A stretch of DNA of 64,000 nt from Fragilaria crotonensis (taxonomy: Eukaryota; Bacillariophyta; Fragilariophyceae; Fragilariales; Fragilariaceae): the NCBI GenBank assembly GCA_022925895.1, contig JAKSYS010000341.1, forward strand, positions 1-64,000, given 5' to 3'. The notes under the pieces are model-generated. The model ran no database searches and was not told the DNA's origin. It saw only the letters and a list, made by a program, of their open reading frames with translations. This document shows, piece after piece, positions 7,175-44,817 of this stretch; within the stretch, counting starts at the first letter, position 1; every line of letters begins with the position of its first letter. Made by a program: the position numbers and the translations under genes.

Positions 7175-7383
7175 TAGCTTTCATGTATGTGTATTGAATG
7201 TGGATACTAATTAATTTGTTAGCAAATTAAGTCTTACTAAAAATTTATTACTTACAAATATTCTTAACAAGAAAGCACAGGCGCCTGTAACTAAGCATGT
7301 TTGGAATCACTTTTTTGTGTTTTCTCATTAATCCTGCATCGCTTCTGTGTTGCCCTTTAATGTTTGTACTCTTGTAGCGAAAT

Positions 7384-8645: not shown

Positions 8646-8793
8646 TCACAAATTTAAATGTACATTTTGGAAGGCGGAGGGTACTAGATTGCACAACGAT
8701 TATTGTTGTGATCATTGCGTTGCCGTATTCATACATTGTAGCAGCAGTAGCATTGCATGTCTACATAAACGAGATCCAACATGGTATTCATTA

Positions 8794-9441: not shown

Positions 9442-9460
9442 CTGCGCATGATGTCATAAC

Positions 9461-9604
9461 AAAAAAAAAAAACCTCAAAATCTACTTTACGTGCTGCCGC
9501 GACATCCAACGAAGGAGATGCTCGACCCGCACGGCCCCACACTATCGCCGAAGTAATAGCATGAGACGGTGTGACTCTTGTGGTCCATGGCGGTATTACA
9601 TGCC
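9461..9604 (-). other. LINE1 3' UTR with terminal stem-loop and T-run tail
   Basis: Read on the minus strand, the end is CGGGTCGAG, a stem (CATC/GATG core, 9503-9520), GCGGCAGCACGTAAAGTAGA, then GG followed by about a dozen T. The same arrangement recurs at 7120-7174, 52063-52117 and 54792-54846. It is probably the element's 3' recognition signal for its own RT (inference). Confidence 0.8.
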
Positions 9605-14100: not shown

Positions 14101-14733
14101 GAGTATCTCGGTCAGGTCTCTGAGTAATTGCGGCGACACAGGTAATCTAGTTCTCAGTGAAGATAGATACTTTTTCAACAACTGAACGCGATATCGTGCA
14201 TTGTGTAATTCCAGAGACCAGTGCGGGGCAGCAAATTTTGTGATATGATTCTCTGCCGCAAGACTGATAGCGAGTAAATCTTTGTCCAATCGTTCTGCGA
14301 ATTGGTGTCGGTCTCCTGCCTTTTGTAACTTTTCTGCCCGGTGAAATAAGTTAGCTCTGCTGAGACTATCATATTTGAACTGTATGTACTCCGTGACCTG
14401 TCGAATGTTTGTCGATTGGAGCATTCTCGGTTCATATTTGGACAGTTGAGGTATTTGTGCTCCAAAGAGTTGATCGATATGAAAATCCACATAATAAGCT
14501 CTGTGATCCGAAGGATGTCTGTGGTTAAATGGCTCGTATCCGCATGCGCTTGCTGCCGGGAGAAGGTCCTGAGAAACTAGAATATGATCCAGACATTTGA
14601 TTCCTCTTGCGTATGTAGCAGGCCGTGTCTGTGAGTGCTTCCCGCTCATGAGGTCAATCAAAGATAGTGCGTTCATAATCTTAACAAGTCCATCCGGTTC
14701 GGAACCAAGTACTTCATTGAAATCTCCGACCAA
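10951..14733 (-). CDS. LINE1 ORF2: endonuclease end and reverse transcriptase
   Basis: A long 1260-codon frame. It starts inside the endonuclease with VGDFNEVLG (catalytic D-x-N) and continues with KCLDHILVS and HPSDHRAYYVDF (SDHR motif). RT motifs follow: the SGLHLGHYKAMI box, IHIYEADYN, NYDATSCYDRI with its catalytic Asp (about 12985-13010), YGTGQGSGNSPAIW and IGFVDDSNG (about 12650-12678). The catalytic box is FVDD rather than YADD. The frame ends in the first part of RNase H. The listed start is not a true initiation site, because the domain begins upstream in another frame. Confidence 0.9.
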   Translation of the reverse strand: MVGDFNEVLGSEPDGLVKIMNALSLIDLMSGKHSQTRPATYARGIKCLDHILVSQDLLPAASACGYEPFNHRHPSDHRAYYVDFHIDQLFGAQIPQLSKYEPRMLQSTNIRQVTEYIQFKYDSLSRANLFHRAEKLQKAGDRHQFAERLDKDLLAISLAAENHITKFAAPHWSLELHNARYRVQLLKKYLSSLRTRLPVSPQLLRDLTEILQPDQIPCDIPRCQQYLRQAKLNVNKIVAQSYERRDTERKHKLQILNSSTSPKDRATATTLKALQKIETIRQVWSKLQSVRSTSDRTGVIRIEIPIHPNTDPKTCTEWKLIDVPSEVLARLQDRNRRHFGQAHGTPFTLPPLKQDLGYCGNTKSADNILSGTYRYPDTGDTSMQDFLDHLQHTTDIANFDSTPTITATAFREKLKVWRESTTTSPSGLHLGHYKAMIARHKFSEVTGDDPVELQRQRDDLNQKQLAIFSVHLTMINYALSRGYSFKRWQTVANTMLFKEPGNIKIHRTRVIHIYEADYNLAMGLKWREAMYRAEALQLLHSGQFGSRPHRTATDPVLLEELQFEISRITRKTLIQTNYDATSCYDRIIPNLAMIVSRKYGIHPQVAQSNATTLHKAEYRIRTDLGLAPTGYSHTPHLPVYGTGQGSGNSPAIWCFLSSTLYDCYDQSASKAFYCTPNGKHPVGIGMIGFVDDSNGQTNQFLSDEAVDTPEVILSQMQRNAQRWSDMLGISGGALELSKCSYHVLTWKFTKQGDPVLYPDRAKYSNVHVRDNNTGQDQALEYLSPYAAHKTLGHFKDPAGNQKEQQRQLQKKSDEVVSFLWKCPLTREESWIFYYSCYVPSMSYPLANSHFTNQQLTKIQRKAMSIIIARCGFNRHMHRAIVFGPREYGGAGFKRLYDQQGIGQITTVLKHWRANTDAGKLLRNAVSWGNYSVGMSKSFLEDVNTPLPHLESKWLKSLRQYLKDVNCRLDIDDPGIAPLEREHDCYIMEAIIQSKQFTAAQLRRLNHCRIFLNAITLSDLTTVVGDHLDMEKIKGQTSLFSLGSRWMKIHQESPSALEWRLWQKANKLWSTSAGKLIQPLGSWLQTHSHRRITAIAYQYDTFLAICKGGNEYITCEHIGRRRYTEQATDTISYENLPEHARPVDVIMEDASCWRIEATTKAPTSTRPFNYGTFDEYVSTLEPWETDLLQHHELFIDPYSACLELQPRFLPGVTAQRSTVPTEHSGGPSVQSKVNALQAEWDHPEDPEWTLIGQNVAECYPF

Positions 14734-15459
14734 TACAATTTGGTATCCGTGGGAGGCACATTCTTTCAGATATAGTAATAAGTCTCTGCAGAAGGCTGCT
14801 CGAGGCGAAGTTAATTTGTCCTGGGAAGAAGTGAGTAGATTGTAATGTTGTGCTGCGACGGTGATCTGGCCTGCTTGGACTTTGTCTGTGACTGGTTGGT
14901 ACGCGAAACGATCACAATTTGTCTATTCAGACCACCTTGAAATACCTGACTGACCCAGCGTCCCCATTTGTCGCTATGCTGCTTGATAATCCTCCCGGTA
15001 GCGTTTGCTAAGGTCAGCAATAGTGTTCCGCCGGGTTTATACATGGTTTTGCTATCCAATGGTGTGGTTCCCAGGGTTAATCGGGACCTCTGCCACAATT
15101 GACGGGTGGTTTCGAACATGATGCTTTTACCTGCGGCTTGTTGACATCAAGATTAATTTCTTGACCACAAAACACATCAGCTTGTACTTCTAATAGGACC
15201 TTGCACAGCTCTCCAAATTGACCTCCTCTTCGATCGAGGTGAAACCGTTCACATTCTGTCCGTAAATTCTAAATTGTCCCTCCTTTTTGTCATCCAAGAT
15301 GTCGCCCCAATAAGTATTACTCCTCTGGTTCTCTACCGACAGTATCGATCCTCTGTTGGATGCGTTGCTCCTTTGGCCATGATTCTGTTGTTGTTCAAAT
15401 ACTTTCCTCCATTCTACTTGCGCCACTCGTAGTCTTGATGCTTTGTCATCACACGTCAC
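14734..15459 (-). pseudogene. LINE1 AP-like endonuclease N-terminal part, frameshifted
   Basis: The 89-codon frame from 15459 carries RIYGQNVNG, the Asn motif that opens APE-type endonucleases. A second frame (15119-14811) continues with the central strands (RWVSQVF...NRQIVIVSRT). A third enters the long RT frame at VGDFNEV. Two frameshifts separate the pieces. In the family this enzyme nicks the target DNA to prime reverse transcription. Confidence 0.7.
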
Positions 15460-16093
15460 TGTGTCTGATGGGAGTGATTTGCTCTACGGGCTTCGTGTGA
15501 GCAATTCTGTTTTTGTTCCCTTTACTAGAACTGTCGGAAGGTGTACTCATCTCTGTGTGAGGTTCTTCCTGTTGGATTGGCGGTGTCTCGATACTGGCTT
15601 GTTGAGTGACGTGCTGCGTTATAATGTCTGCTAGGTGGTTTGGACTGAGAATGGATTCGTTGAGTATCCCTGCATGGGACTCGAAGGGATCTGTTAATGG
15701 CGGTCGGGACCTGGACGCGTCATCATCTATAAGACTGTCATGGTCGTCTTCTGGGCCTGGGTATAATGGATGTTGGTCATTTGTATAACTCATCGGACTT
15801 TGAATTGTCGGGCTATAGTTGGAGTTTTCATGGTGGTAGTGATGCCATGGATGTTGAAACTCGGACGATTGTGGTGACTGCGAATCCTCTCGTGTTGAGT
15901 CAATACTAGATGTCGGCGATGAATTCCGTCGTTCTGGTGTGTTCGTCGGGCTCGTGCTTGTTGGAGTTGACGTTGATGCAGGTTGTTTCTTCACTGGCGT
16001 GTTCTTACGATCCCTTCGTTTCCGGTATTCACTTGTCTCGGATGGCATTGTGGCTTGGTAATTGATGGGGCCGTACATGGCTTCTGTATCCAC
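15449..16093 (-). CDS. LINE1 small second ORF (Pro/Ser/Thr-rich)
   Basis: About 210 codons, beginning just after the ORF1 stop and overlapping the first codons of the endonuclease frame by about 10 nt. The first ATG is at about 16078 (MYGPINYQ). It is rich in Ser, Thr, Pro and Asp with a basic patch (RKRRDRKNTPVKK) and has no recognisable domain. It may be the N-terminal linker of ORF2 in another frame or a separate product. Tight packing with both neighbours suggests reinitiation or frameshift translation (inference). Confidence 0.5.
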   Translation of the reverse strand: MDTEAMYGPINYQATMPSETSEYRKRRDRKNTPVKKQPASTSTPTSTSPTNTPERRNSSPTSSIDSTREDSQSPQSSEFQHPWHHYHHENSNYSPTIQSPMSYTNDQHPLYPGPEDDHDSLIDDDASRSRPPLTDPFESHAGILNESILSPNHLADIITQHVTQQASIETPPIQQEEPHTEMSTPSDSSSKGNKNRIAHTKPVEQITPIRHSDV

Positions 16094-16095
16094 CG

Positions 16096-17934
16096 TTAAA
16101 TCAATAACTGCCGAGCGTTTCCCGATGTTGGAGGAGGTGCCGTTTGAGTTGGTTCTTGTGGAAGCATCTTTGAAATCATGCTCGTTAGCATTTGGAGCTG
16201 CCGATCATGGTTTTCAAACATTCGTGTGAAGTCTGAGGTTTGTGGAGCTGGTGGTGGCGGGAGGTTTGTAGCCATATGAACTTGGAGAGCCTGTGCGATC
16301 TGTTGGGCCATGTTTTGCTCGAACTCTTGTTGTTTTGCTGCTGCTTGTTGTTCCATTTGTTTCCTTTGATCCTCCAGTTTGGTTTCTAGGTTACGGCGTT
16401 GGATCTCTGCCTGTCGTTCGAACTCCATCTTTTGCTCTGCTGCATTTAACTCGTTCTCTCGTTTTTGCTGTGCTGCTTGTATCTCCATATCTTTACGATG
16501 TTTTTCCTTGTCTTCTTCCAATCTGTCCACCTTGCGTCTTAGATCGTCCACTTCGGCTCTGCTGGATGCAAGATCCGAGAGGAGTTCATCGTCGATTGTG
16601 ATTGCAGCCGAGGTAGGTGTGGTAGAATTGTTTTCAGAGAATGGTTTTGTGTTGAGATTAGAGCCTTTAACTCGTTCTGCCCATGACAATTGTTTAGACT
16701 GATTTGTCTGCGATGTGGTCTCTGATTCGTCAGTGGTATTCGCAAACGTCCAATCAGGTACCGCTGAATCGTAAGACATGGCCGTGTTTACGCTTGCCGA
16801 CAAGTACGTTCCATTTCCGCTGGAAAAGCCGTCTGAGTTCAATGGTGCTACTTCTGGAATACCAGAATATATCCTGGAGGATTGTTTCGCGTCATCTGGG
16901 ACATGGGATTCATACCATGTATTGATCGAGGCTTGAAGTGTCTTACGAACGCGTTGAAAGTCTTCCTTGTTGACTAAGACCTTGTGCTTACCCAGATAAT
17001 CTGTATTTGGAACTGCGATAACGTCTCGAACTCCTTCCACCGACAAAATTCTATCAGATAAATAATACATGGCATCGTTGCTCACATTATTCAGGATTAT
17101 CACGTGATTATTCGAAATCATTTTTGTCTGTTGGAGAAGAATGCGTACATATGCTTCTGGGTGTTTGTTCCTCAATTGAAATGAAGTAAAGTCAGTTGAT
17201 TCGCGATAAACAAGTTTGAGTATCTTCAACATCTCCATTGATGTGCTTTTTTCTGTTTCGATTGCGTATGCCTTCGTCCTGAAGTCCTTTCCTTTGTATT
17301 TAATCGTTGGTGTACAAAACGCCAAATAGAATTTTGGGAGTTTAGTCTTTGATGGAAAATGTCGCTTCAGTTCTGTTGCTACCTTTGATGTGGCATGTGC
17401 CAAATCGTAGTACTGAGGGTCCAAACCTTGAATGAATCCTAGTTGGGTTGTGTTCCAGACATCTTCCGTCCAACGGTGTTCGGTGAGAAAACAATTATGC
17501 TTGCGTAGAAGTTCGTGAATCTTTGGAACTGATTTCATCTCTTGAAGTGATACTGCTGTTCGAAGTCGATGCACTATGAAGACTGACTTGTCTCTTTTTG
17601 AAGAAGTGTAGGTGCTTTCCATGTGGGATTGTTTCCTGTCGTTTTGATTTTCTTGATCGTGAAGATTGAACAGGTTTTGGTGTTGCTCCTTAGTCCATGT
17701 GAGCGTGTCAACTCGAGGCATAACTTTGTTGTTGTTTGTCATGATAATCACTTCCTCTCCAAAGTACTCTTGAACTGCTTGGATCCAGTGAAGGTGAAGC
17801 TTCGACGGATGAATCGATGCATCATGTTTACTCTGAATAAATCTGAACTTGAGTGTTTTTTCAACTAATTTTTGATCGTTTCGTTTCCTTCCTCCGGTAC
17901 CTGGTTGCGTTACATCAGAGATGTCATCCGCAAT
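16096..17934 (-). CDS. LINE1 ORF1, main part (coiled-coil RNA-binding type)
   Basis: Open from the PAT-1 junction (17934) to the stop at 16096. Counting the 22 codons on the far side of PAT-1, ORF1 is about 634 aa. The N-terminal half is globular (FRFIQSKHDAS, FLTEHRWTEDVWN, FYLAFCTPTIKYKGK). The C-terminal half has a long Glu/Lys/Gln coiled coil (about 16290-16580) and then a proline patch PPPPAP. No CCHC knuckle is seen. LINE ORF1 proteins coat the element RNA; that role is inferred from position and architecture. Confidence 0.8.
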   Translation of the reverse strand: MADDISDVTQPGTGGRKRNDQKLVEKTLKFRFIQSKHDASIHPSKLHLHWIQAVQEYFGEEVIIMTNNNKVMPRVDTLTWTKEQHQNLFNLHDQENQNDRKQSHMESTYTSSKRDKSVFIVHRLRTAVSLQEMKSVPKIHELLRKHNCFLTEHRWTEDVWNTTQLGFIQGLDPQYYDLAHATSKVATELKRHFPSKTKLPKFYLAFCTPTIKYKGKDFRTKAYAIETEKSTSMEMLKILKLVYRESTDFTSFQLRNKHPEAYVRILLQQTKMISNNHVIILNNVSNDAMYYLSDRILSVEGVRDVIAVPNTDYLGKHKVLVNKEDFQRVRKTLQASINTWYESHVPDDAKQSSRIYSGIPEVAPLNSDGFSSGNGTYLSASVNTAMSYDSAVPDWTFANTTDESETTSQTNQSKQLSWAERVKGSNLNTKPFSENNSTTPTSAAITIDDELLSDLASSRAEVDDLRRKVDRLEEDKEKHRKDMEIQAAQQKRENELNAAEQKMEFERQAEIQRRNLETKLEDQRKQMEQQAAAKQQEFEQNMAQQIAQALQVHMATNLPPPPAPQTSDFTRMFENHDRQLQMLTSMISKMLPQEPTQTAPPPTSGNARQLLI

Positions 17935-18758
17935 CGAAATAAATTCCGAGTCTTGTCCAAATTTCTCTAAGTCCGTTTAGTCGGATGAGTCGTCTGCTTC
18001 GTGGTTTCGTCGTACCGTTGTCTCGCGCACTGTCGCGTCGATTCGTGTGTTGTCTGTGGTCATTCTCGTTTCTCTTTTGTGCTCGTGAGACTAGTAGAAA
18101 TAAATAGATGGCATCGGAATCTGGTCCTAATAGTTTTGTCTCTCTCCTGGTTCGTCTCGCGGTGTCGGTCCCGTGATAGTTATCTAGCGGGGTCCGTCGC
18201 GCGATTGTGAGTCGACCTGGTTTCCGCCCCATGCAGAGCATGGCCAGGAGGTAACCGGCGCCAGGGGCGCCGATGAACCTAGGCATCGGGCCAGGAGAGG
18301 AGGTGGGTGGGTGGGATTAACTAGAGTAGTGTCTTTGTCGATTCGAGTTCGTTCGGATTGTGAGCAATTCGTATCTTGTGTTGTGTTGTGTCGTGGTGTT
18401 CGTCTGTCTGTGTCTCGTGTTCGTCTGTCTGATGGCGACTGCCCGTCCTTTCGATCTTCGGACATGCCACGAAATAAATTCCGAGTCTTGTCCAAATTTC
18501 TCTAAGTCCGTTTAGTCGGATGAGTCGTCTGCTTCGTGGTTTCGTCGTACCGTTGTCTCGCGCACTGTCGCGTCGATTCGTGTGTTGTCTGTGGTCATTC
18601 TCTCTTTTGTGCTCGTGAGACTAGTAGAAATAAATAGATGGCATCGGAATCTGGTCCTAATAGTTTTGTCTCTCTCCTGGTTCGTCTCGCGGTGTCGGTC
18701 CCGTGATAGTTATCTAGCGGGGTCCGTCGCGCGATTGTGAGTCGACCTGGTTTCCGCC
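17935..18758 (-). repeat. PAT-1 3' split direct repeats B1-A2-linker-B2
   Basis: The ~290-bp B repeat occurs at 17935-18228 (B2) and 18471-18758 (B1). The ~156-bp A2 repeat lies at 18315-18470 and matches A1 at the other end (24653-24809). Between A2 and B2 is an 86-bp linker (18229-18314) with small palindromes. The B1/A2 joint (TTATTTCG against TGGCATG on the sense strand) should equal the joint of a circular intermediate, as in split-repeat elements. Confidence 0.9.
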
Positions 18759-18759
18759 A

Positions 18760-19880
18760 TTTTCCGGTTGTCGTTCGTCCGCAGAATCTGGGGCGATCGT
18801 GTAGAAAGATTGTCGACTCGTCATGCGTGCGGCTACTCCGAGTGTCGAGTCCGGCACTTGAATTCGGAGGTATCTCATGAACGTCTGGCTTCGCCACCTC
18901 CCCACCATCTGAATCGTCTCACTTGGAACTCCGGCGAGGTGCATGGCCATCGCGGCGCCTGATCTGATCGAGTGAGTGCCGATGCCACTCGCCTGGAGGC
19001 CAAGCCTCTCTCCTGCGAGAGTCGTCGCCATCCTGAGCTGCCTCAGTATGGACTTGGAAGAGATGTGTTGGGGTTCGTCTGAGTCCTGCGTCCTGACGGC
19101 GTTAATCTTCGGGTTCGTCCGTGAATGGCAATCGTAACTCCGTACCCTCGTCGTCAGGTCCGCTAGCACGCGGACGGGGCAGATGTCCGTTTGTCCCTGC
19201 CTGTCGTTTCGATGCTGAGTCACTGTCGCGCCTTTGTCCCCGTTCTTTGTCGCCGGAAGGTGATCGACACGGTGTCGGCATTCTCCAGTTGTCCTCGGTC
19301 GGTTGTCTGCAGGTCCTGTCCCTTCTGTCGGAAACGAACGTCGTCCACTCTGATCACTGATGTCGTCCGTCGGCTTCCGACATCGGAATATTCGCACGAC
19401 CTCATGGCGAAAAAGAACGCGACCACCACAAGTTGTCCAATAGCGATGTCCGTCTCGTTTCTTGCCCAGGATCGAACCTTTGAATCACCTCTAACGGCAG
19501 CGCCTGCTGTGGGTAGGTCCTGGGTCCTCGTCGGCGTAACGTTTCAGTTGTAAAGCCAGAAGGGGTCGAGTCGTCCGGCGGCGTCGTGGATTGGGCTCTC
19601 AAATTTGTTAAGCCTGAAGGCCTGAGCCACACCGTCGAGGGTGGCACGAATGGAACCGGACAAGGGTCCATTGCCAGCTTCCTGAGGTTGTCGGGAGCGA
19701 AGCCGTCCGTCCCGAAGGGCGGCGGCGAAGCAGGCGAACGTTTCTGCTTTCGCTTCGTCCGAGTCCTTGAGAAAGGCTCCTCCCGACTCCGTCGATTCGT
19801 CCGAGGAATCTTTCGTAACAGCGCCAGCTGCTATCGCGCTTGGCACGGGTTGAGTCGGCAAGAGCTGCGTTTTGGGCAGC
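18760..19880 (-). pseudogene. PAT-1 tyrosine recombinase
   Basis: Catalytic motifs are clear: AFFFAMRSCEYSDV (first Arg, about 19375-19425), GTHSIRSGAAM (HxxR, about 18955-18980), MVGRWRSQTFMRYL (Trp and nucleophile Tyr, about 18868-18915). An N-terminal SAM-like segment (STRAKRDSSWRCYERFLG) lies near 19800-19870 in another frame. Several frames are needed to read it through. In this order of elements the recombinase inserts a circular cDNA by strand exchange, giving no TSD, as seen here. Confidence 0.88.
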
Positions 19881-20544
19881 AGCTGCAGCCAGCCTCCAAT
19901 CTGCGAAATAAGGGCTGGCCGCAAAGGGATGATCCTGAAGTTCTGTGGAACAAACGGTGAGCAGTTTTTCGTGATCAAGTCTGTCAGTGCCGCGTCGTCT
20001 AGAGCGAAATCTCGGGAGAGCATGTCCGCCACCTTGTTCTCTTTCCCGGGGAACCACTGCGTGTAGTGGTCTATCTCGTGCGTGAGGCAGAAATCAGCGA
20101 ACGCTCGGGCTATCGTCAGGTGAAGCGGACAATCGTCGTTGAAGTTCGACTTAGCAAGCCATCCCGCTGCTGAGGTGCTGTCTCCTGACTGAGCAGAACG
20201 TCTTCGTCCGTCCACGCGGCCCCTTCGTGGAATTCCACGATCATCCCCACAAAGGCAGCAAGGAACTCGAGAGTGTTTAGGGTCGCTCGCCCCAGCAGGT
20301 GCTCTGGTAGCTGATATCGCCACGCCAGGCCGCTCTTGAGGCAGTAGCCTCCGATGCCTTGTGGGCATGCGTCCACCCTCACTATGCGCGTCGGCCACCG
20401 GCAAACCAGCCTGTTGATCGAGATACCTCGCGACGCCTTCTGAAGGAAAGCCTTCCACAGAATCAGGTCGTCCAGTTGGGGTTTGGTCAGTCTCGCCTTC
20501 CCGGCCTGCTTCGAACGCTCGCAGGCCTTGTATAGCCTTCCCAT
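19880..20544 (-). pseudogene. PAT-1 RNase H
   Basis: IVRVDACPQGIGGYC gives the first Asp, LNTLEFLAAF the Glu, and GDSTSAAGWLAKSNF, after a frameshift near 20180, the next Asp. HYTQWFPGKENKVADMLSRDF then provides the His and last Asp. This order matches the RNase H of DIRS-like elements. It follows the RT directly, with the recombinase after it. Confidence 0.85.
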
Positions 20545-20581
20545 AAAGTGTCTTGCGTAAGGGATGACGTAGGCGGCGTGG

Positions 20582-21939
20582 CTAAAACGTCCGAGGGTCG
20601 TCTCTAGGTCTCGTCGTCACGAAGGCATGTCTGTGCGTCAGCATCCTGTCAACGGCTTGCGTCCAGCTCATGTGCTTATCGTGAGGCAGTGCGACGACGA
20701 AGCGGCGTGTGTCCACGATCCATCCGAGGATCATCTTCCTCTCGGATGGTTTGGCCTCGGCCAGGAACTTTGGGATCGCAAGGATATCGTCTCTGGGAAA
20801 AGTCTCCTTAACCTCGGGGTCGCAAGGCCTCCCGACCAGGTGGAGCGCCAGCGGGATCGCGGCAGCGCTCTTTCTGCGTCGCGGGGTTGAAGGCCCCAAA
20901 ATGTCGTCCAGGTAGCAGTCGAAGCGAGGGAGGTCGTCGTAGGGTGGATAGTTCACTGCGAAGTAGTCCGCCTTGCCGAAAACACTCATTTTGTCGACCG
21001 ACCCTTTGTCATTGTCCACTGCCCCTTCGGTGTCCAGGAGGTGCTGGTGCGGCGAGTGGTAGACGCTCGGATCCCAGTCGTCCCTGCGGACAAGGTCGTT
21101 TGCCAAGTCCGTGATCATCTCCGACACGTCGCTCCATTGCGATGGGTTTGGCGCTCCACCGAACGTCATCCTCAGCGCCACTAACAGCAGGTCGTCGATA
21201 CTCGTGCAGGACTTCATGGCTGTGGCTGCTTTGAGATGGATTCGTCTGTAGGCGGATTTGCAGTCGACCTTCGTCATCCAGATAGGCTCGTCTGGCCATA
21301 GTTGGCGCAGGAACGAGATGTGGTACATGAGTCTGCTGAATGCTTTTCCGAAACGTGCTTCTGTCAGTTGGGATGTGTCCACGCGTTCATTTACGCTTCG
21401 TCCTGCCACTCCGCTCGGGCTGAATGACTGGTCATGTGTCAGTCGGAGTTTCTCTATTGAATTTCCTTTCTCGTCGATCGACGTCTGCGCGACCATCCCC
21501 AGAGGCGCGACCTCGCATCCCTTGATCTCTAAGGCGGCTTCTCGCGGCAGTGGTAGCTGCCAACCCCTTGAGGCTTCGTCCTTCAGCATGGATATCAACT
21601 TTGCCTCGTGGCCTCGGGCCGATTTGTGATTGCCGCGAGCTAAGTTGGCGCGCACGTCCGCGAGGCGGTCAGAATCCGAGATCTCGCGAAGCGGAACTCG
21701 GCCCTTCGAGATGCGCTCCTGAAAACGCGGCCAGAGGGGTGGGCGGACAGGAGCGGGGCGAGAAGTTCGGTGGGGCGAAACTCGGATCCCGGCGTCAGGG
21801 CGCTGAACGGCTGGGCCCGAAGGGCGGCGTCGAGGTCGAGGGCGTACCGTTTGAGCACCGCGAGGTTGTGGCGGGCGGCGTCGTGCGTCCAGTCGAAGCG
21901 AAACTCCGTCGCGTGGGTGCGCGGTTGGCCGGAGTGCAA
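20582..21939 (-). pseudogene. PAT-1 reverse transcriptase
   Basis: The 357-codon frame (21655-20582) has LRLTHDQSFSPSG, KVDCKSAYRRIHL (first Asp), LRMTFGGAPNPSQW and RFDCYLDDILG, the YLDD catalytic box. A preceding 100-codon piece (21939-21640) belongs to the same polyprotein in another frame. The THDQS, FGGAP and YLDD combination is typical of DIRS-order RTs. It ends near the start of RNase H after a shift at about 20590. Confidence 0.88.
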
Positions 21940-22165
21940 AATAGTGGCAAGGGCATCGGCCAGGCGTGGTTCGGGAGTCGTGGGAACGGCGAGTCGACGT
22001 TCGGGAGCGGGATCGTCGGCAATGGCACCAACGATGGGAACTTACCGGGAAGCGGGCGTGGCGTGTCTGCGAGGGCTGATGTCGGCGCGTCGTGGGCGTC
22101 TCCGGGCGACAATGCGCGCGCCACGGGTGGTCGGTCGGTGGCGAGTCGAGGGCGGAGCGTAGCGC

Positions 22166-24615
22166 TCAGGCCCGACTTCGTTTCGTGACGGGTCGTCGCG
22201 GGCTGGCGAGATGCGGGCGTCGGCGACGTGGCGGGGCGAGAAGGTTCGTGCGCGTGGGTTCCCGCGGGACTGTCTCGGGCGGCAGATTCCGATAAAGTCC
22301 GGGGCGTCCTACGTGGCGTCTGTTGTGGAACTCGGCCGTCGACCGTTCCTGGTCGAACGCCCATTGCGACGGCTGTGCGACGAAGGCGGGCTGGAAGTAA
22401 GCAGATGCAGAGGGTCCTAATTTTGTTTTCTTGCTGGGCGGCGTCGCGTCGGACGAGGGGCGGCGCATGCGCGCCCGGCACTGCTCTATCCACGCTCGTA
22501 CGGCGGTCGTCTGTTCGGTCGTGAGGGCGACGTGCGAGGCGCTCAAGAAACAGCTCTTGACGCACTTCCCGTTTAGGTGCCACCTGCAGCACATGTTCGG
22601 GATCGGTCCACTTCGGACGTGATCGAGGAACACCTGCCAAGTGTCGTTCGCGTCTCTCGGGAAAAGGTCCTGCTGTGGGTTTGTGACTGCGTCCGCGGGT
22701 TGCCCGCGACGTCCGGCTCGAGCGCTCCCGGCGGCGGCTACAGGCTGCGAGTCGCCCTTTTGGTCGACTCCACGTCCCAGCCGCTCCTTGAGGAAGTCGC
22801 AGGCCGGGAAGACAAAGGCGCCGTCCTCCAACTGCTGCCGGGTGGACCTGAATTCTAGGAGTGCTGGGTTGATCTCGTCCTCGTGTTCGACTCCAGCGCA
22901 GAGAACTAGGTATTGTTGCATGCGTTTTTCGATGAACCAACCTAACCTGCACGCGGCTGAGGGGTCAGCGTGCGCTAGCTGGCGGAGCGTCGCCAGTGTG
23001 GAGCCGACCGCCCTGGTCAGGAAACGGCTCCACTCGTCCAACATGTGTGAGCGGGAATTGGCTCCGAAAAGGAGCTCCAGCACTCCGCTCATGTTCTCGA
23101 TAAGCCGCGCGAGTTCGTGAAAATCTTTCGGCACCGTGAAGTTGAGTTTTGTCATGCTCTTGATGTCCTTCTCCGAGAAGCCCGTGGTCGTGTCGGTCGT
23201 CTTGAGTTGCATTTGCACAAGGGTGCTGGCGTGATCAGAGGCTTCTCGCCCGATCGCTGCTGCTCGGGCGAACGTCTGGGGACCGCAACAGAAGAGGCTG
23301 AAGGCCCTGGCCGGTCAGGTGTGTCGGCCGTGAAAGAAGCGGTGCGGATTGCGGCGCAGAAGCCCATGGGAATGAACGCGTCTCGACCTTTGGTGTTCCT
23401 CAAGAAGTGGTGGATGTGGTTTTGTACGTAGGCCACGTTGCTAAGCGTCAGGATGTCCGAGAAAGACTGGACCGGGCGGCTGCGAATCATCCTGTCGGCG
23501 TCCCTTTCGGACACGAAAAGGACCATTCGTTTCGTCGACGGCGGGAAAGAGTCAAAGCCTGTCTTCGACGTTTGGGGGGACGAGGTCGCTGCGTTTGCTG
23601 CCTGTCGCTCCAGTAACGTTGACAGGTTTCGAATGGCGTCCTCTGTGCGTCCTGGCGTGCTGGCATGGTCGTCCGTCCGAATGAGGCTCCTAGCTCTGAC
23701 CGCCAGATGCTTGAGGTGTAGCGATTTCGCCCATTCGTCCGATCGTTTGGAGTATGCGTTTGATGCCGCCACCCCTCGCTTTGTCGGTCCCGGGGTCCTC
23801 CTCGAGTTTACCGCTACGCTGAGGACCCACCGCGGGATGTAAGAGGCTGCCTCCGCGCGGATGGTTGCTCTGGACGGGTCTGGGTCCTCGCTCGCTCTCT
23901 GTTTAATGGCGTTGACGATCAGTAGGGCGAGCTCCTCTGGCGCGGTGACGTAAGTGTCCATGATGGCGGCTGCGATGAAGGCCGGCACCGGGACGGTGGG
24001 CTTCATCGTGAACCCGACGACCGTGACGTCGTCTGTGTCGTCCTCGCTCGCTTCGACTGGCTTGCTTGGCTTCGCCCGGTGCTTCGTTCCGCTTCCTTTC
24101 TTCGGTCGTCCTCTGGTTGCAGTCGGCAGGGTGCCGGCTGGCTCGGCTTCGCGCGTGGCTCCGGTGCTGACGCCTGGCACCTGGGCACGTGTCGTCAGAG
24201 ATTCATTGATCGCCGCCAGTACGTCCGACGTAGAATTCCACGAGAGCATCCTCGACCAATCAAAAGGCGTTCCGATGTGTCGCTCTACGACCTGTTTCGT
24301 GTCGACCGCCATGGCGGCGGCGAAGCCGCCAGCCCCATCAGTGCCCAAAGGGCGTTCGTCCCGTCGTTGAGTCCATCGTCAGCGTCGTGGTGGAAGTGGT
24401 GAAAGAGTCGGATGACTCCGTGCGTGTTTACCATAAGGTGGGCGACTTCCGGAGAGCACAAGTGTACGAATCCTGTAGAATTTGTACTGACCGAGTTCGT
24501 CTTCGAATTCAAAGCGCTGAGCTTTGACGACCTCCCACTGGTCGAGCTTCCTGAAAACGTCCAACCACGTCAAGGTCATCGTCATCGGTGAGCGAGCGTC
24601 GTCTGACCCCTCCAT
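22166..24615 (-). pseudogene. PAT-1 Gag-like region with CCCH finger
   Basis: Starts with ATG 24615 (MEGSDDARSP). It runs through at least four frames: a His-rich segment (VIRLFHHFHHD), a long piece from 24348 to 23152 with an acidic run (SEDDTDDV), and a piece from 23218 to 22166. The last holds CCRWHLNGKCVKSCFLSASH, a CCCH-type finger. Position ahead of RT suggests a nucleocapsid role. I do not recognise the rest. The downstream Pro/Arg-rich part (about 22000-22400) is low-complexity and very GC-rich. Confidence 0.7.
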
Positions 24616-24652
24616 TGCGTCTGTGGTTCAAGTCGGGTCGGGGGAGAGGCCA

Positions 24653-24809
24653 GATTAACTAGAGTAGTGTCTTTGTCGATTCGAGTTCGTTCGGATTGTG
24701 AGCAATTCGTATCTTGTGTTGTGTTGTGTCGTGGTGTTCGTCTGTCTGTGTCTCGTGTTCGTCTGTCTGATGGCGACTGCCCGTCCTTTCCCGATCTTCG
24801 GACATGCCA
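24653..24809 (-). repeat. PAT-1 5' repeat A1
   Basis: A 157-bp copy of the A repeat begins with TGGCATGTCCGAAGAT on the element's sense strand and ends in CTCTAGTTAATC. It is almost identical to A2 at 18315-18470, with a two-base CC difference near the outer end. It marks the element's 5' boundary. Confidence 0.9.
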
Positions 24810-24952
24810 GGGAAGACTAGCCGTATCGTTGCCTCCATCGCCAGGAGGTTCAGATGAGCGGTTCGTCATGGTCATTACTTCGTAGTACAAAGGCTACCTG
24901 AGATTCACGTAGAAATTAGTAAGTGCTTACTTGTTTTCCTAGTATGAAAATT
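24810..24952 (-). CDS. LINE1 5' UTR and first 22 codons of ORF1
   Basis: ATG at 24875 starts M-T-M-T-N-R-S-S-E-P-P-G and runs to L-P at the PAT-1 boundary. On the other side of PAT-1 the frame resumes with I-A-D-D-I-S-D without a lost base. The 77 bases above the ATG (24876-24952) are the 5' UTR, ending at the TSD. This is the evidence that PAT-1 inserted into an intact ORF1 in the same orientation. Confidence 0.85.
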
Positions 24953-24971
24953 CTGCGCATGATGTCATAAC

Positions 24972-27900
24972 AGCTTTGAAATCACAATGGTCTTGTGGTG
25001 TCACAATGTGTTCATTCAAGAGACGAGTGTATCGATACTCATCATCCCTTACGCGGTGGTCAGAAAGGTTGTCTGGTACAGCAAATAGGACTTGGCCAAA
25101 CTCTTTTCGCATGCTCTTCCGTAATCGACCAAACAATTGAACAATCTGCATGGAGTCATACAAATAGCCGACACATACCAAATGTCTGCAGGAGGGATTT
25201 TCGTTGCCAACCAAACCCATTGTTGTTGAAATGAGAACATCCAACTGTCCTTTGCTCCATTCCGTGGCACTTTGATTAACATCGTCATGAGTGGAGTCAG
25301 AGGAAACAAATTTGCATTTGAACCTATTGCTCAACTGTTCAAATAGAAGAATCCCATCCCTTTCTCAGCGACGACAATATGGACAGCTGCAAGTCCTCTT
25401 CCAGATTCCAACTTTGTTTTAACAAAGTGAGCGGCACATACACATAACGTGAAGAAATTGACACTTTGATTTCAAACCCCTGTGGAATTTGCCAACCACA
25501 TGATTCCCAAGGATAAGTTTGACGTCGCTGAGGTCATCGGTTCTTGATAAGCCAAGATGCCTTGCAAATCTTTTAACCATAAAATTGAAGCGACCCACTC
25601 AAGACAACAATGGGAATACCCAGACTCAGGAGTTCTGAATAAACCTTGTATTTGTTGTCCCGAACCTCATTTCAGATAGGATGGTGTGCACTTCGTCAAT
25701 AACAATTTTATCGACAACGTCCACCCAAGACTTGAGAACTTCATAGAACCACATGAACAAATTGCTGATGGCATCGAGGCTCAAAAGACCAAGCTTGGGA
25801 GATTTTCTTTCTCCCGAGTTCTTCTGGTAGTGGGCCATCAGAGGTGATGTCCCGCCCCAAAAAACACAGATGTTTGACTTGAGGAAAGCTTCTCGAATGC
25901 CGTGGATGCCATTGCAAACTGATACCCAGCCAAGAAACGATATGGTGAAACATGGATGATTGTCTTTGGTTTTTGGTTCGCAAGGTGGCGAGCAATAGTC
26001 GGAATTATATACGATTCCGATTTGCCCTCACCTGGTGCTAGTAGAGCAAGACAGTGCTGGGGCTTGTTGTTTAACTCAGTACCATAGTCAAACTCAACCA
26101 ACTCTTTCTGCTGCAGCGATAGATAGTGTTCATGGCCATTATTTGGACTAGCAGAGTTGGATACCGAAGTCGCATTGCAGTGCGTAGGTCTGCCAAGGAA
26201 AGGCGCGTGATGGTGGATTGGGATATTAGATAGGACGTGTCTCAATAGCACAATGATACGCATTAAAGTGTGCCTCTTCTGAACCAACTTGCTGGCTGGA
26301 ATACGCAATGGCATGTGTCGTTGAAGAATGACCCATTTTGATGCCCCCATGGCACTCGCTGACAAGAACATGCCAGGTTGATGGCCACCACCGGTCACGA
26401 AGAAACACCAGCCCAAAATGCCTTACTTGTGTCATGTTCGGAATCGCAGATAAAGAAAAATGTCTCGGATGATATGTGATGGTTGAATGATGGAAGCATT
26501 AATCCTTGTCGGGAATATGAGATTATGATTGTTGTCACTGGTGTTACTGCAGAACATACTGCTTGCTTTCGTTTGGATCAGAGATCGAAACAACAAAAAG
26601 TATCTGGAGATAACTGGGGGTAGCTTGCGCTCAATTTCTTTGCAAGTGCGTCGTGATGCGCTATTGAACCCTTTCAATGAAGAAAGTGTGTAATAGACCG
26701 TACCATTTGTGTAGAGACAGTGGAACATGGTCGGATCGGAGCTCATTCAACCTTGCGGAACCACCACCGAAACCGTGGAAAGACATTTCTAAAAGTGCCT
26801 TCAAATGGTCGAAACAATCCAGAGAAAAAGTGAACCTTGTTTCCACACGGGACTCACATCTGCTAGAAAAAGGTCACCTGTGTCACAATCAACGTGGACC
26901 TTTATATTGGTCAGAACATCGATTACCGGTTTCCACCAAATTCCCTCTGCTAAGTTTGAAATTGCCACCTTCATCAAATAAACTGTCTTTGGAACAATTT
27001 GCGACCAGTCATCAAACAGAAAAGAAAACTGATCTATGACAATGTTCCCCTTTTCATCAAGTGTCGTCTTCCTCCTTTTGGGGAGTCTGCGGTGCATTTC
27101 ACGAATTTGGCGGAGCATAGGTGACAGAGAATGGATGACATGCGATTTTCTTACCGCCGTGATGAGAGCAGGACCGTGTAACGTGAACGCGTCTTCAGAA
27201 AACGAACATATAACGGAACAAATACCGGCTTTCAAAACAGATGTTACCTTAGCGATAAGCGAGGAAACAGTGTCACACGATATCATTTTGATTTTGGAAT
27301 CCTCTTTTTGGACACGGAATCCAGACATTAAACAGAATTCAACCGCCAATGGATGATGTTGCACTGAAGGTGGTATTTCAAGCATTAAATCCTTCAGAAA
27401 GTATGCAATTGAAAATCCATCTCTCTCGTTGAATTTCTTGTTGACAAACAGACCTCGTCGGAAGGAATATGCTAAAAGCTTTTTGAGTTCAATTAGTAAT
27501 GTAGATGGATCGTGTTGCATGGTGTATGTGCATCGTTGTGACACATCTTCAATTTCACCACCTTCAAATGTTTGCAAAGCAGCCCGAAGATCACCAGGTA
27601 CCATTTTTATGTTCTTCTGGGCATAGTTCAGAAGCCAGACTTCAGCAAGCTGGTGAAGTTTAACCAGGAATACCTCAGTTGATGGATTTGGTGGTGAATG
27701 GATCAAGTTGAAGTCAGTTTTGATTTTTCAATAAATTGTGTGCCACCGCCACAGCCAAAAATAAGTGGGGTGAACATATGAGTATACGTGTCGTCCTGTC
27801 TTTCCCTTTGAGGTAGTAGTGGCAACAAAGCAGTTCTCGCCTCGCCGTAATCAAATTGTTCCGTGATGCGAGGTGCTTTGTTGAAGAAAGCTGAGACTTG

Positions 27901-28383
27901 GGCATGGGAAACGTATCGACCACAGCAGAGTTTGATGAGTTCAACTTCCTGCAGCTGCAACTCATTGCAACCCATATTTTTGCAATGTCGAAGAGCGTTA
28001 TCTTTCCTCGGAAAGACGGAACCGCAAGTGCACACATATCCTGTACAAGTTTTTTTGTCACTACGGTACGGCTCTATGGTGCAGGATTCCTTCGCAACGA
28101 GAACTCTTTTAGTAAATTCGTTCAACACAGAACGGACTGTAGACATTCTACTGTCCATGTGATGTTTTTTAAGGTGATCGCGGATGGATCTCTCTTCCAT
28201 GTTGATCATGTTGTGAGCATTGCATTGACGGCAGCAAAGGCCGAATGGTGAGAAAGTGAAAAGTTCTCGAATAGGATCAAGGGGGTCGATCTCTGTGCTT
28301 TGCACCAGAAGACGGACAGAAACAACAGGACTGATAATTCCGTTAACCAGCTTTTGTATTGGAGGAGAGCTTGATGATGGCAT
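24972..28383 (-). pseudogene. H1: C2H2-finger / RecQ-like helicase of a mobile element
   Basis: Minus-strand gene starting MPSSSSPPIQKLVNG at 28383. N-terminal fingers: CCRQCNAHN...HLKKHH and CTCGSVFPRKDNALRHC. A long middle domain includes LPPVISRYFLLFRSLI. The helicase core has APGEGKS (Walker A, about 26021-26039), IDEVHTIL (about 25686-25703) and a C-terminal lobe with STTMGLVGNEN...VQLFGRLR. This order recalls the fungal OrsD-finger/RecQ-type helicases (by memory of the family). About five frameshifts are present. LINE1 splits it at V-M-T-S-C-A; the tail is at 8794-9441. H2 is a second copy. Confidence 0.75.
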
Positions 28384-28667
28384 GATGGGAATGATGAGTT
28401 TGTTATGGACAAGCCGTGATGTTTGTGTGCCTGTGTAATAAAGTCAGTCGGGAGCCGCGCCAATTTCGATAGTACCGAATTCTACTTGGATCGATCGTAA
28501 CTCCCGACGTACAAAATCGAGCTGTCTAACGTAGGAATCATTACTGGGGGATCCCTCTCGACGTACAAAAATGTCCCTCCCGACGTACAAAAATCACTCC
28601 CAACGTATCTAATAAAAGTATCCATACCTGAGGATATATAATCTACATAGAAGCTCGCCCCCTTAGG
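28384..28667 (-). repeat. H1 5' terminus with reiterated boxes
   Basis: On the sense strand the element starts CCTAAGGGGGCGAG (28667-28654). An AT-rich TATATA segment follows, then boxes ending in ACGTCGGGAG or close variants at 28597-28607, 28577-28593, 28555-28570 and 28501-28516, then the leader to the ATG at 28383. The same array is present at H2 (32105-32270). The boxes could bind a transposase or be promoter elements. The boundary is sharp because truncated H2 coding sequence begins immediately outside it. Confidence 0.7.
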
Positions 28668-31600
28668 GACAGCAAATAGCACTTGACCAAAATTGGTTCG
28701 CATGTAATTTCGAAAACGACCAAACAATTGAACAATCTGCATGGCGTCATACAGATAGCCAACACAAACCAAATGCCTGCAATAAGGATTTTCGTTGCCA
28801 ACCAAGCCCATCGTTGTTGATATTAGGACATTCAACTCTCCTTTGCTCCATTCCCTGGCAATTTGATTCACTTCTTCTTGAGTGGATTCGGAAGAAACAA
28901 ATTTGCAGTTGAACCTGCTCGATAAGTTTTGAAATAAGAAAGTCCCATCTTTCTTTTCAGCGACAACAACATGTATGGCTTCAAGTCCCCTTCCAGATTC
29001 CAATTTGGTTTTAATGAAGTGAGCTGCAACATATAAATACCGTGACGTAATTGACACTTCGATTTTGAACCCCCGTGGGAACCTGCCAACAACATGACTC
29101 CCAAAGATAACTTTGACATCACTGAGGTCATCGGTTCTCGATAAGCCGAGTTGCTTTGCAAATCTCGTGACCATGAAAGATGGTAGTGATCCGCTCATGA
29201 CGACAATGGAAATTCCCAGACTTGGGAGTTCTGAATACACCTTGTATTTGTTGCGGAAGCTCATTTCAGAAAGTATGGTGTGACCTTCGTCAATTACAAT
29301 TTTATCAACGACATCCACCCAAGACTTGAGTACTTCCGAGAAGTAGTTGAACAAATTGTTGATGGCATCCAGATTCAAGAAAAGTAAGCTTGGGAGGTTA
29401 TCCTTCACCTGGAGTTCTTCTGGCAGTGCGCCATCGGAGGTGATGTCCTGACCTGAAAAAACACATATGCTGGAATGGAGAGACAGTTTCTCAAGCGCGG
29501 CAGATGCCATTGCAAACTGGTACCCAGCCAAGAACCGAAATGGAGAAACATGGATAATTGTCTTTGATTTATGGCTGGCAAGGTGGCGAGCAATAGTAGG
29601 GATTATATACAATTCCGATTTGCCCTCGCCTGGTGCTAGTAGAGCAAGGCAGTGCTGTGGCTTGTTGTTGAACTCGGCACTGTACCCAAACTCAACCAAC
29701 TCTTTTTGCTGCACAGACAAATAGTGGCCGTGACCATTGCTTGGACTTACCAAACTTGGATACCGAAGTCGCATTGCATTGCGAAGGTCTGCCAAGGAAA
29801 GTCTCGCTGTGAATTTGGATATTTGATGCGACGTGTCACCAATTGCAAAATGATAGGAGTTGAAGTGTGCCTCTTCTGAACCAACTTGGTGACTGGAGTA
29901 GGCAAAGGAGTGAGTTGATGAAGAATGACCCATTTTGGAAGCTCCCATGGAATTCGACGACAAAAAATGGTTGGGCTTCTGGTGACCACCAGTCACGAAG
30001 TTAGAAACACCAGCCCAAAAGTGGCGAACTTGTGTCATGTTTGGAATTGACGATAGCAAAAAAGAGATCTTGGATGATGTGTGGCGGTCGGATGGCAGAA
30101 GGATTCCCCCTTGTAGGGAACATGAGATTGTTAATATTGCTGTTGCTGGTGAACATACTTGCTTTGGATCGGACCAGAGATCGAAACAATAGGAAGTATC
30201 TGGAGATAACGGGTGGTAGCTTGCGTTCGATTTCCTTGCTAGTGCGTCGTGATGAGCTGTTGAAACCTTTCAAGGAAGACAGGGTGTAATACACCGTACT
30301 GTTTGTGAAGAGGCAGTTGAACATTGTAGGTTCACGAAGCTCATTCAACCGAGCAGAGCCCCCGCCAAAACCATGGAAAGACATTTCTAAAAGTGCCGTA
30401 AAATGGTCAAAATGATCCATTGGAAAAAGAGAACCTTGTTTCCACACGGGATTCACATCTGCTAGAAAAAGGTCACCTGTGTCACGATCTGCGTAAACAT
30501 TTATATCAGTAAGAACATCAACCACAGGCTCCCACCAGATCCCGTCTGCCAAATTTGAAACTGCAACGTTCATCAAATGCACGGTCTTAGGAACAATTTT
30601 GGACCAGTCATCAAAAAGAAATGAAAACTGATCTACCACGATGTTTCCAGTTTCATCGAGTGTTGTTTTCCTCCGTTTGGGGAGTCGACGGTGCATTTCA
30701 CGAATTTGACGGAGCATCGGTGACAAACTATGGAGTACGTGAGATTTTCGTACCGCTGTGATAAGTGCGGGACCGTGTATTGTGAAAGTGTCTTCTGAGA
30801 AAGAGCATATAACTGAGCAAATAGCAGCTTTCAAGACTGATGCTACCTTTGCAATAACAGAGGAAACAGTGTCACACGAGATCATTTTGATTCTGGAATC
30901 TGCCTTTTCGAACACGGAATCCTGACATCAAGCAAAACTCAACTGCCAGGGGATGATATTGGACTGACGATGGGATTTCAAGCATCAAATGCTTTAGAAA
31001 GTATGGGATTGAAAATGCATCTTGGTGGTCCAAAGGTTTGGCGGCAAAATGGCCTCGTCGGTATGCAAAAGAAAGGAGCTTCTTGAGTTCAATACATAAA
31101 GTTGATGGATCATGTTGCATAGTGTAAGTGCAGCGTTGTGACACATCATCAACTTCTCCACCTTCAAATGTTTGTAATCCTGCACGGAGATTGCCTGGGA
31201 CCATCATGATGTTCATTTGGGCAAAGTTCAGAAGCCAAATTTCGGCATTTTCGTGGATCTTTATCAACATAGACTCATGTAGTGAATCTGGTGGGGAATG
31301 GATGGCTGTAAAGTCGTTTTCAATTTTCATTGCAAAACGCATTGCGCCACCACATTGGGTTATAAGAGGGGTGTACATATGAGTGTATGTATGATCATGT
31401 TTCTCTCTCTGCAGAAGAAAGGGTTGTAGAACACCTCTTGCTTCGCAATAATCAAACTGCTGTGTGATGCGAGCTGGTCTCTCCTCAAAAAATAAGCAAA
31501 CTTGAGTTTGTGATACGTACCGACCACAGCAGAGTTTGATGAGTTCAACTTTCTGCAGCTGCAACTCATCGCAACCCATATTTTTGCAATGTCGAACTGC

Positions 31601-31985
31601 GTTATCTTTCCTCGGAAAGGCGGAACCGCAAGTGCACGAATATCCTGTATAAGTTTTTTTGGTCACTACGGTACGGCTCTATGGTGCAGGATTCCTTCGC
31701 AACGAGAACTCTTTTAGTAAATTCGTTCAACACAGAACGGACTGTAGACATTCTACTGTCCATGTGATGTTTTTTAAGGTGATCGCGGATGGATCTCTCT
31801 TCCAAGTTAATCTTGTTGTGAGCATTGCATTGACGGCAGCAAAGGCCGAATGGTGAGAAAGTGAAAAGTTCTCGAATAGGATCAAGGGGGTTGATCTCGG
31901 TGCTTTGCACCGGAAGACGGACGGAAACGACATGACTGATAATTCCGTTAACCATTCGTATTGGAGGAGTGCTTGATGATGGCAT
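28668..31985 (-). pseudogene. H2: second helicase copy, 3'-truncated by H1
   Basis: Closely similar to H1. It starts MPSSSTPPIRMVNG at 31985, has the same N-terminal fingers and middle domain, Walker A APGEGKS (about 29617-29638) and IDEGHTIL (about 29278-29300). The core is better preserved than in H1, with one 525-codon frame (30059-28482). Coding similarity stops after VLFAVP, where H1's CCTAAGGGGGCG terminus begins; the frame then reads into that terminus for about 60 codons. The C-terminal cysteine clusters are absent. Frameshifts lie near 31640, 30890 and 30030. Confidence 0.75.
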
Positions 31986-32270
31986 GATGGGAATGATGAG
32001 TTTGTTATGGATGAGCCGTGATGTTTGTGTGCCTGTGAAACAAAGTCATAGCCGGGAGCCGCGCCAATTTCGCTAGTACCAAATTCTACTTGGATCGATC
32101 GTAACTCCCGACGTACAAAATCGAGCGTCCAACGTAGGAATCATTACTGGGGGATCCCTCTCGACGTACAAAAATGTCCCTCCCGACGTACAAAAATCAC
32201 TCCCGACGTATCTAATAAAAGTATCCATACCTTATGATAATTTATTGACATAAAAGCTCGCCCCCTTAGG
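31986..32270 (-). repeat. H2 5' terminus
   Basis: Near-copy of the H1 terminus: CCTAAGGGGGCGAG at 32270-32257, then ACGTCGGGAG boxes at 32200-32210, 32180-32195, 32158-32173 and 32105-32120, and the same leader to the ATG. It differs from H1 by scattered substitutions and a short indel. Confidence 0.7.
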
Positions 32271-32343
32271 CCCTCACGACGTATGTAGTAAAAGTAACCA
32301 TATCTTAGGATATTTTATATACAAAAAAGCCCGCCCCCTTAGG
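32271..32343 (-). repeat. Solitary third copy of the helicase-element terminus
   Basis: A 73-bp unit, CCTAAGGGGGCGGGCTTTT at its outer end and TACGTCGTGAGGG at its inner end, abuts the H2 terminus head to tail. It carries the outer half of the terminus only, without the box array or a gene. It could be a remnant of an earlier element into whose end H2 inserted, or a tandem terminal duplication. Confidence 0.6.
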
Positions 32344-44754: not shown

Positions 44755-44817
44755 GTATCAAGTAAAAAAATATATTCCCGAAGTTATTTTATATAGAAAT
44801 CCGACCGCCCCCTTAGG
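44755..44817 (-). repeat. Terminus like that of the helicase elements
   Basis: On the minus strand: CCTAAGGGGGCG (44817-44806), TCTATATAAAATAA, then TACTTGATACATCGGGTGGG. This parallels the H1, H2 and solitary termini in order and spacing, with substitutions. It overlaps the last codons of the Crypton-type recombinase ORF. Confidence 0.6.

Follow-up and report, generated by a model that had tools for sequence, protein, structure and literature searches.

Helicase-bearing units with a fixed 5' end and no common 3' end in Fragilaria crotonensis, a candidate family of telomere-directed mobile DNA

A 64,000-nucleotide stretch of the diatom Fragilaria crotonensis (assembly GCA_022925895.1, contig JAKSYS010000341.1, positions 1 to 64,000; hereafter the window) carries two similar helicase genes, H1 and H2, on its minus strand. 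The question raised by this locus is what kind of unit begins abruptly inside a relative of itself, and where such a unit ends. A first-pass annotation of the window had described an inserted mobile element with its own termini. Comparison with the rest of the assembly indicates that the sequence opening both genes is the fixed 5' end of a mobile unit, a conclusion that is strongly supported. The reading that we favor, with some reserve, is that such units form a telomere-directed family in which each joins at its fixed end to a CC(T) and replaces the distal chromosome arm as far as the telomere.

H1 (from 28667 downwards) and H2 (from 32270 downwards) are 82% identical over 3.6 kb. As annotated, both open with the same sequence, CCTAAGGGGGCG, followed by a leader of ~285 bp with four ACGTCGGGAG-type boxes (counted by eye), and the coding sequence of H2 ends at 28668, precisely at the start of H1. 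The end of H1 had been placed at 24972 and lies elsewhere: comparison with a 99% identical relative at C411:7568 exposed an interruption of H1 at 24953 by ~15.5 kb of other DNA, bounded by a 19-bp duplication, GTTATGACATCATGCGCAG, at 24953-24971 and 9442-9460. H1 resumes past this insert, with the helicase C-terminus at ~9461-8831, and its homology with the C411 relative extends to 5887, broken once more by a short second insertion. The H2 gene is divided among three overlapping frames. Its relative at C84:77590 shares 92% identity over 3.6 kb; what follows in that relative aligns to the window at 73.5% only, within H1's own C-terminal part. The units and termini of the window are as follows:

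5887..8830, minus strand: H1 unit 3' of the helicase gene, 99% identical to C411 until 5887
~7173-6333: second short insertion in the H1 unit
8831..9460, minus strand: H1 helicase gene, C-terminal part
9461..24952, no strand assigned: foreign DNA within H1, flanked by the 19-bp duplication
24953..28383, minus strand: decayed first part of the H1 helicase gene, as far as the inserted DNA
28384..28667, minus strand: H1 leader, a conserved start of ~62 bp and then the four family-specific boxes
28656..28667, minus strand: H1 5' terminus (CCTAAGGGGGCG), joined to H2 helicase codons at a CC
28668..32270, minus strand: H2 unit, leader and helicase gene, truncated by H1 at 28668
30872-31678, 30001-30927 and 28482-30269, minus strand: open reading frame (ORF) pieces of H2
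29900..29955 (approximate), minus strand: H2 codons for a GHS...Y box, tyrosine-recombinase-like by its motif
32259..32270, minus strand: H2 5' terminus
32271..32343, minus strand: third terminus, a 73-bp stub of another unit cut at CCT within its own leader
44806..44817, minus strand: fourth terminus, of the same kind and on the same strand as those of H1 and H2

The terminus recurs across the genome. A search of the kind that the annotation had proposed returned 71 matches to the exact 12-mer, compared to 3 for a reversed-pattern control; three of the 71 (on C203, C324 and C327) precede unrelated sequence and were discarded as chance. With variants, including CCTAAGGAGAAGG and CCTAAGGAAAAGGGG, we counted 91 termini, distributed over 32 contigs; the count is limited to the fetched DNA, one stretch around each terminus match plus the window. 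No contig has termini on both strands, and 18 of the 32 have 2-11 each. Each unit has one fixed 5' terminus, CC(T)AAGG, at the head of a leader of ~62 conserved bases followed by boxes that differ by family (for example TACGTCGGGAG, TACCACGGGAG, TACATCGGGTG and TACATCCTGAG, by eye), and the longer copies contain a helicase gene. At least four boxes were present in 62 of 80 leaders by a crude pattern applied without a chance control.

To define families, we grouped leaders by single linkage at >=95% identity over >=230 bp, starting at base 1-2. Fourteen families, each behind 2-7 unrelated flanks, bear out the proposal of a mobile element with a defined terminus; together they span 48 distinct flanks whose last 200 bp are mutually unalignable at the junction, and the H1 family alone has seven copies behind seven flanks. 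Five further leader groups are duplicated junctions with one flank. The annotation had named similarity extending past the terminus as a sign of segmental duplication. Such similarity is seen at seven junctions that are duplicated across six pairs of contigs (C273/C578, C300/C665, C349/C703, C121/C847, C588/C783 twice, and C592/C84), and the 14 families speak against it elsewhere. That these seven junctions were assembled twice also counters the idea that junctions are misassemblies, and assembly error would not favor CC.

What the units share at their start they do not share at their far side. Copies either continue to the telomere or are cut where a later unit joins, so of the described inserted element the defined 5' end stands and a common far end does not, and the unit is better read as a one-ended replacement of a chromosome arm. 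Between one terminus and the next lie 52 segments of 14 to 12,474 bp, some with other DNA. Two H1-family copies, 97-100% alike, are truncated by a following terminus, C551:30772 after 385 bp and C588:9541 after 966 bp, and at C588:10923 the likeness to the H1 family stops after 260 bp. At the other extreme, the units of C490 and C754, which have different flanks, are 99.6% identical over 10.0 kb and can be aligned for 10.2 kb to the telomere. The C592 unit reaches its own telomere at 13.7 kb, the C490 unit at 10.2 kb. Relatives of the C592 unit behind other flanks in C258, C783 and C121 are 98.7-99.3% alike for 6.0-8.4 kb, up to the contig end in C258, the end of the fetched stretch in C783 and a leader-like sequence in C121; over its first 292 bp the C783 unit is only 93% alike. 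C84 matches the C592 unit for 9.5 kb, but with the flank of C592.

The DNA past the helicase varies by family, with an oxygenase-like gene in C490 and C754 and an AlkB-SRA gene in C413. The first, a telomere-adjacent gene at L047:2452-5043 and L045:2286-5956, is 2-oxoglutarate (2OG)-oxygenase-like by eye and had no Pfam match over the cut-off; the gene in C490 and C754, which lies outside the helicase and is only a possible part of the element, has 53 matches genome-wide on many contigs. The ORF at L052:2902-4839, convergent with the helicase gene, combines a predicted AlkB-type 2OG-Fe(II) oxygenase with an SRA domain (5-methylcytosine reader) and has 20 matches in the genome. Elsewhere, tandem repeats of ~190 bp replace the helicase gene after the usual leader (C23:3690, C122:27645, C121:81416, C776:22733 and C783:10420). 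We considered helicase-less segments as a second autonomous class and rejected this, as those inspected consist of a leader and then other DNA, either the 190-bp repeats or LINE-like, Harbinger-like, Copia-like, ankyrin or reductase-like ORFs (by eye).

To characterize the joins, we searched the fetched DNA for uninterrupted relatives of the flanks. Such relatives, 82-100% identical, were present for 41 of the 91 junctions; two, which shared one occupied site, were excluded, leaving 39 testable junctions. In 36 of these the relative reads CC (13), CCT (21) or CCTA (2) at the join, an identity of 2-4 bp with the terminus, the chance of two matching bases being ~1 in 16; in the other three the relative mismatches the terminus at the first base. 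Among 37 distinct targets, the first position is C in 34, the second is C in 37 and the third is T in 25. C also occupies the position immediately upstream of the join (-1) in 42 of 77 flanks, and T at +4 (19 of 37 targets) is a weak preference, with a p value of 0.017 uncorrected for the 20 positions looked at. The CC or CCT at which units are joined is either common to unit and target or contributed by the target. Termini themselves may serve as targets: seven 14-bp stubs on four contigs would be explained by units joined at CCCT inside CCTAAGGAGAAGGCCCTG, the terminus of another family, and in two cases (C23/C122 and C588/C783) one flank carries different units at the same terminus, which fits exchange at already occupied termini.

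We then looked for the continuation of the target downstream of the 39 junctions, within 0.7-32 kb of fetched DNA, and found no clear resumption. No match starting at the junction was present for 33. Of the six matches, four lie inside a same-family copy at the same place (C411:12083, C551:33308, C588:8575 and C271:28667, the relative for the last being H1 itself), one, at C23:12809, lies in satellite repeats, and one, at C783:8092, is a 32-bp match in another leader; by their coordinates all six look like paralogues or repeats. Four non-repetitive tests, at C490:10243 and three in C754, reach the telomere. Taken together, the CC(T) joins and the lack of clear target resumption suggest one-ended joining of units, with replacement of the distal arm.

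The orientation of the units agrees with the position of the telomeres where these can be placed. Telomere repeats, searched as two exact repeat patterns, occur at the very start of C23, C490, C592 and C754, and all nine termini on these contigs point their gene side to the telomere. Units were thus present on all four contigs ending in telomere repeats, a set to which other telomeric contigs may have to be added. The repeats are an irregular mix of TTAGGG and TTAGGGG (contig starts L041, L043 and L045). Internal telomere-repeat arrays were also observed, at C427:70399-70733, C427:97119-97146 and C411:23106, the two on C427 being on opposite strands. Joins within telomere repeats were considered and rejected, as two adjacent repeats are present in the last 200 bp of none of the 91 flanks.

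The protein encoded by the longer copies is, judged by its motifs and profile matches, a C2H2/SF2 helicase. Uninterrupted frames have 1324, 1260 and 1254 codons. H2 matched Pfam DEAD (E 6e-9) and Helicase_C (E 6e-6), the H1 piece matched DEAD at E 7e-4, below the curated cut-off, and both domains were found in all five members scanned (two of them partial). The annotated RecQ-like core is upheld as a helicase, and RecQ models match it weakly (TIGR01389 E 0.042 at best, in two of the five; RecQ_Zn_bind E 6.2 in one). The best NCBIfam match was the Cas3 helicase core, at E 1e-5 and far below its cut-off, and the best match in the PDB was DHX58 (E 0.0035). The N-terminal fingers are C2H2-like by eye, with Pfam zinc-finger models matching only below cut-off. 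The suggested resemblance to OrsD was not recovered, with no Pfam match at E<=10 in the five members (three covering the N-terminus) nor in the window pieces at E<=1, in searches whose HMMER filters can drop weak matches. In the same five proteins no DDE transposase, no reverse transcriptase and, at E<=10, no Helitron replication-initiator (HUH) or PIF1 model was matched. Reverse transcriptase was likewise unmatched in the seven neighboring ORFs scanned. A retroelement reading was rejected since the unit's own gene has no reverse transcriptase match; reverse transcriptase was seen in other elements. No viral-contig relatives were confirmed among 114 pattern matches to two peptide patterns.

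A tyrosine-recombinase-like motif set within this same protein, in its middle domain (~residues 430-700 in the C490 protein), may account for the lack of a visible transposase. In order, the domain contains GGGSARxxEL, a Lys, TQVRHF and GHS...Y. Conservation was counted at each site over the matches that span it (52 in total, not independent of one another): Arg in 26 of 29 (2 gaps), Lys in 27 of 30, the second Arg in 18 of 21, His in 18 of 18 and Tyr in 19 of 19. The spacings are 108 (R-R), 33 (R-H) and 9 (H-Y), where 22 real tyrosine recombinases have 78-112, 23-24 and 9-10. Tyrosine recombinases test a swap of about three bases for pairing before ligation, and in integrons it is replication that resolves cassettes once a single strand has been exchanged. 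By analogy, the identity of 2-3 bases between terminus and target would fit the pairing test, and a single crossover would fit the integron type of resolution. As an observation apart, 62 weak Phage_integrase matches, all below cut-off and perhaps Crypton- or DIRS-like, were found at L151-L158, none in the helicase genes looked at.

How could such a unit move? In the mechanism that we propose, the helicase protein would recognize the boxes and open the terminus, and the 5' strand end would be passed to a CC(T) in another chromosome end, subject to a pairing check over 2-3 bases. The motor would then unwind outward while the arm is copied or exchanged as far as the telomere, so that the chromosome's own telomere would act as the 3' end of the unit. 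The nicking activity may be the tyrosine-recombinase-like domain of the same protein. The orientation would be fixed because a chromosome keeps a single centromere and a telomere only if the join faces outward. In its most specific form, which we hold only tentatively, the unit would be a one-ended DNA transposon that combines a tyrosine recombinase and an outward helicase in one protein, joins by exchange of one strand at CC(T), uses the telomere in place of a second end and relocates entire arms, with iteron-like family boxes tying each protein to its own terminus.

A number of observations weigh against this telomere-directed mechanism. All data come from one draft assembly of one species; 50 of the 91 junctions lack a usable uninterrupted relative, and the loss of the distal arm was examined only within the fetched stretches. 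The CC could be common to terminus and target or the target's alone, and in the latter case it would be a target preference rather than a shared core. The termini of C273, C572 and C783 are far from the predicted end, the opposite contig end being the closer one, and the helicase fragments within the first 1.3 kb of C12 face inward; where a draft contig stops does not tell where the telomere is. The leader-like sequence that follows the C121 unit at 74463 has no CCTAAGG start. The enzyme behind the joining is predicted from motifs only. Within those motifs the box II histidine is replaced by Thr or Arg and the R-H spacing exceeds that of real enzymes, and profile methods gave the helicase proteins no support as recombinases: this holds for Pfam recombinase models, for a PDB profile search (no recombinase match at E<=10), for hhalign against Xer (best segment elsewhere), for hhalign against 22 recombinases comprising Xer and phage integrases (P 0.21, the best local segment being the GHS...Y box) and for a profile comparison with diatom recombinases. 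Hidden Markov model scores were -3 to -5 bits, compared to 2.6 for the best of 341 scored shuffles, and predicted structures of two single window ORFs were uninformative, with a mean predicted local distance difference test (pLDDT) of 34.5 and 30.0. Given the lack of profile support, we treat the recombinase as a lead.

The main rival to the telomere-directed reading is repair by the host, either by end joining or by microhomology-mediated break-induced replication, in which 2-3 bases of microhomology join an eroded or broken end to a donor whose break or unwinding always falls at the terminus; the helicase would be a passenger and the terminus a fragile site. This would account for the CC(T) at the joins, for target resumption not being found and for extension to the telomere, and microhomology-mediated telomere repair using subterminal sequences is described for Pyricularia in the portion of PMC8381367 consulted. 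We nevertheless consider it unlikely, as the same donor base is used across 14 families and the first ~62 bp are conserved, which argues that the element itself specifies the end, and as the preferences at -1 and, weakly, at +4 exceed what pairing with the terminus would require. Homologous recombination among subtelomeres, the segmental duplication that the seven junctions present twice with the same flank would suggest, is contradicted for most copies by the unalignable flanks of the 14 families and is hardly credible as a general explanation.

Two rivals concern the second end. An ordinary two-ended transposon, whose 3' end went unrecognized and whose target remainders were removed by later deletions, is highly improbable: the 190-bp-repeat units at C23:3690 and C122:27645 do have a common 3' edge behind different 5' flanks, but a shared edge is also produced by exchange at an occupied terminus, near-identical copies are cut at different 3' points, and the 39 target tests, including the four non-repetitive ones that run to the telomere, showed no clear resumption. 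A rolling-circle, Helitron-like process with a 5' nick, helicase unwinding and, lacking a 3' terminator, run-off at the telomere would combine a constant 5' end, a variable 3' end and a helicase. It is nonetheless highly improbable, because the helicase is of the DEAD/Helicase_C kind, because the replication-initiator and PIF1 models were unmatched and because a common 3' end, CTRR or other, was not found.

Several other features of the window and its relatives were recorded. Two Copia-like copies (named by eye) flank H1 and H2 in opposite orientation and are 98.6% identical over 6.9 kb. In the 64-kb window these and the neighboring genes are:

10951-14922: ORF inside the foreign DNA of H1, with endonuclease and weak reverse transcriptase matches
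17934-24809: Copia-like copy inside the foreign DNA of H1
33163-40021: second Copia-like copy
42847-44091, minus strand: ankyrin-repeat-like ORF of 414 aa (by eye), which begins ~0.7 kb inside the terminus at 44817

Silicon transporter genes at C349:33494-34817 and C703:7186-8517 lie 1.6-2.4 kb outside a terminus, on two contigs that share the same junction. In the genome as a whole the Pfam silicon transporter model PF03842 has 19 matches, 18 of them over the cut-off, as expected of a diatom; of 14 named controls none exceeds it.

The telomere-directed units resemble several known systems in part. With the tyrosine-recombinase elements, Cryptons and Starships, they have in common a few bases of identity between terminus and target and the recombinase-like motif set, whereas only one end was found in the diatom unit and its recombinase-like motifs have no profile support; Cryptons have direct repeats at both ends, and past the diatom unit no clear target resumption was seen. 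Starships carry a gene near their 5' end, to which the position of the gene in the diatom unit can be likened. Helitrons likewise have a constant 5' end, a helicase and variable downstream DNA, and differ in the initiator, in PIF1 and in the 3' end, as noted above; the target here is CC(T). HeT-A and TART form one-orientation arrays at chromosome ends, with one constant and one open end. So do the telomere-attached retroelements MoTeR (PMC8381367) and FoTeR and telomeric Penelope-like elements. Relative to telomeric retroelements the diatom unit is a mirror image, its constant end being 5' and its open end facing the telomere; it has no reverse transcriptase match and no telomere-repeat pairs in its 91 flanks, and although joining by one end is common to both, retroelements copy RNA, whereas the diatom unit would move as DNA.

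Closest in genomic setting are the subtelomeric RecQ-like helicase families (TLH) of Ustilago, Magnaporthe, Metarhizium and Agaricus and the Y' elements of yeast, which in the consulted parts of PMC7473861 and PMC4522978 are amplified near telomeres in full and truncated copies. The diatom units share this pattern; a fixed joining end, a CC(T) target and one-ended mobility are undescribed in those parts, and here the host is a diatom and the RecQ matches are weak. AcademH and KolobokH, as described in PMC10799480, carry DEAD and Helicase_C domains and so share a gene of this kind within a transposon; the diatom helicase proteins had no DDE transposase match and their units are one-ended. No description of a one-ended, telomere-directed helicase element was found in the literature searched, which was mainly non-subscription and included the available part of PMC3212892.

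If the telomere-directed reading is true, a DNA unit that specifies no more than its own start and takes the telomere as its other end would represent a different way to move. It would explain repeated swapping of chromosome arms without homology, with the prediction that whatever lies outside the terminus travels along as cargo, and it would give a concrete role to the helicase genes that crowd the subtelomeres of other eukaryotes. If the recombinase reading holds as well, these units would mark a path leading from site-specific recombination to chromosome-end maintenance.

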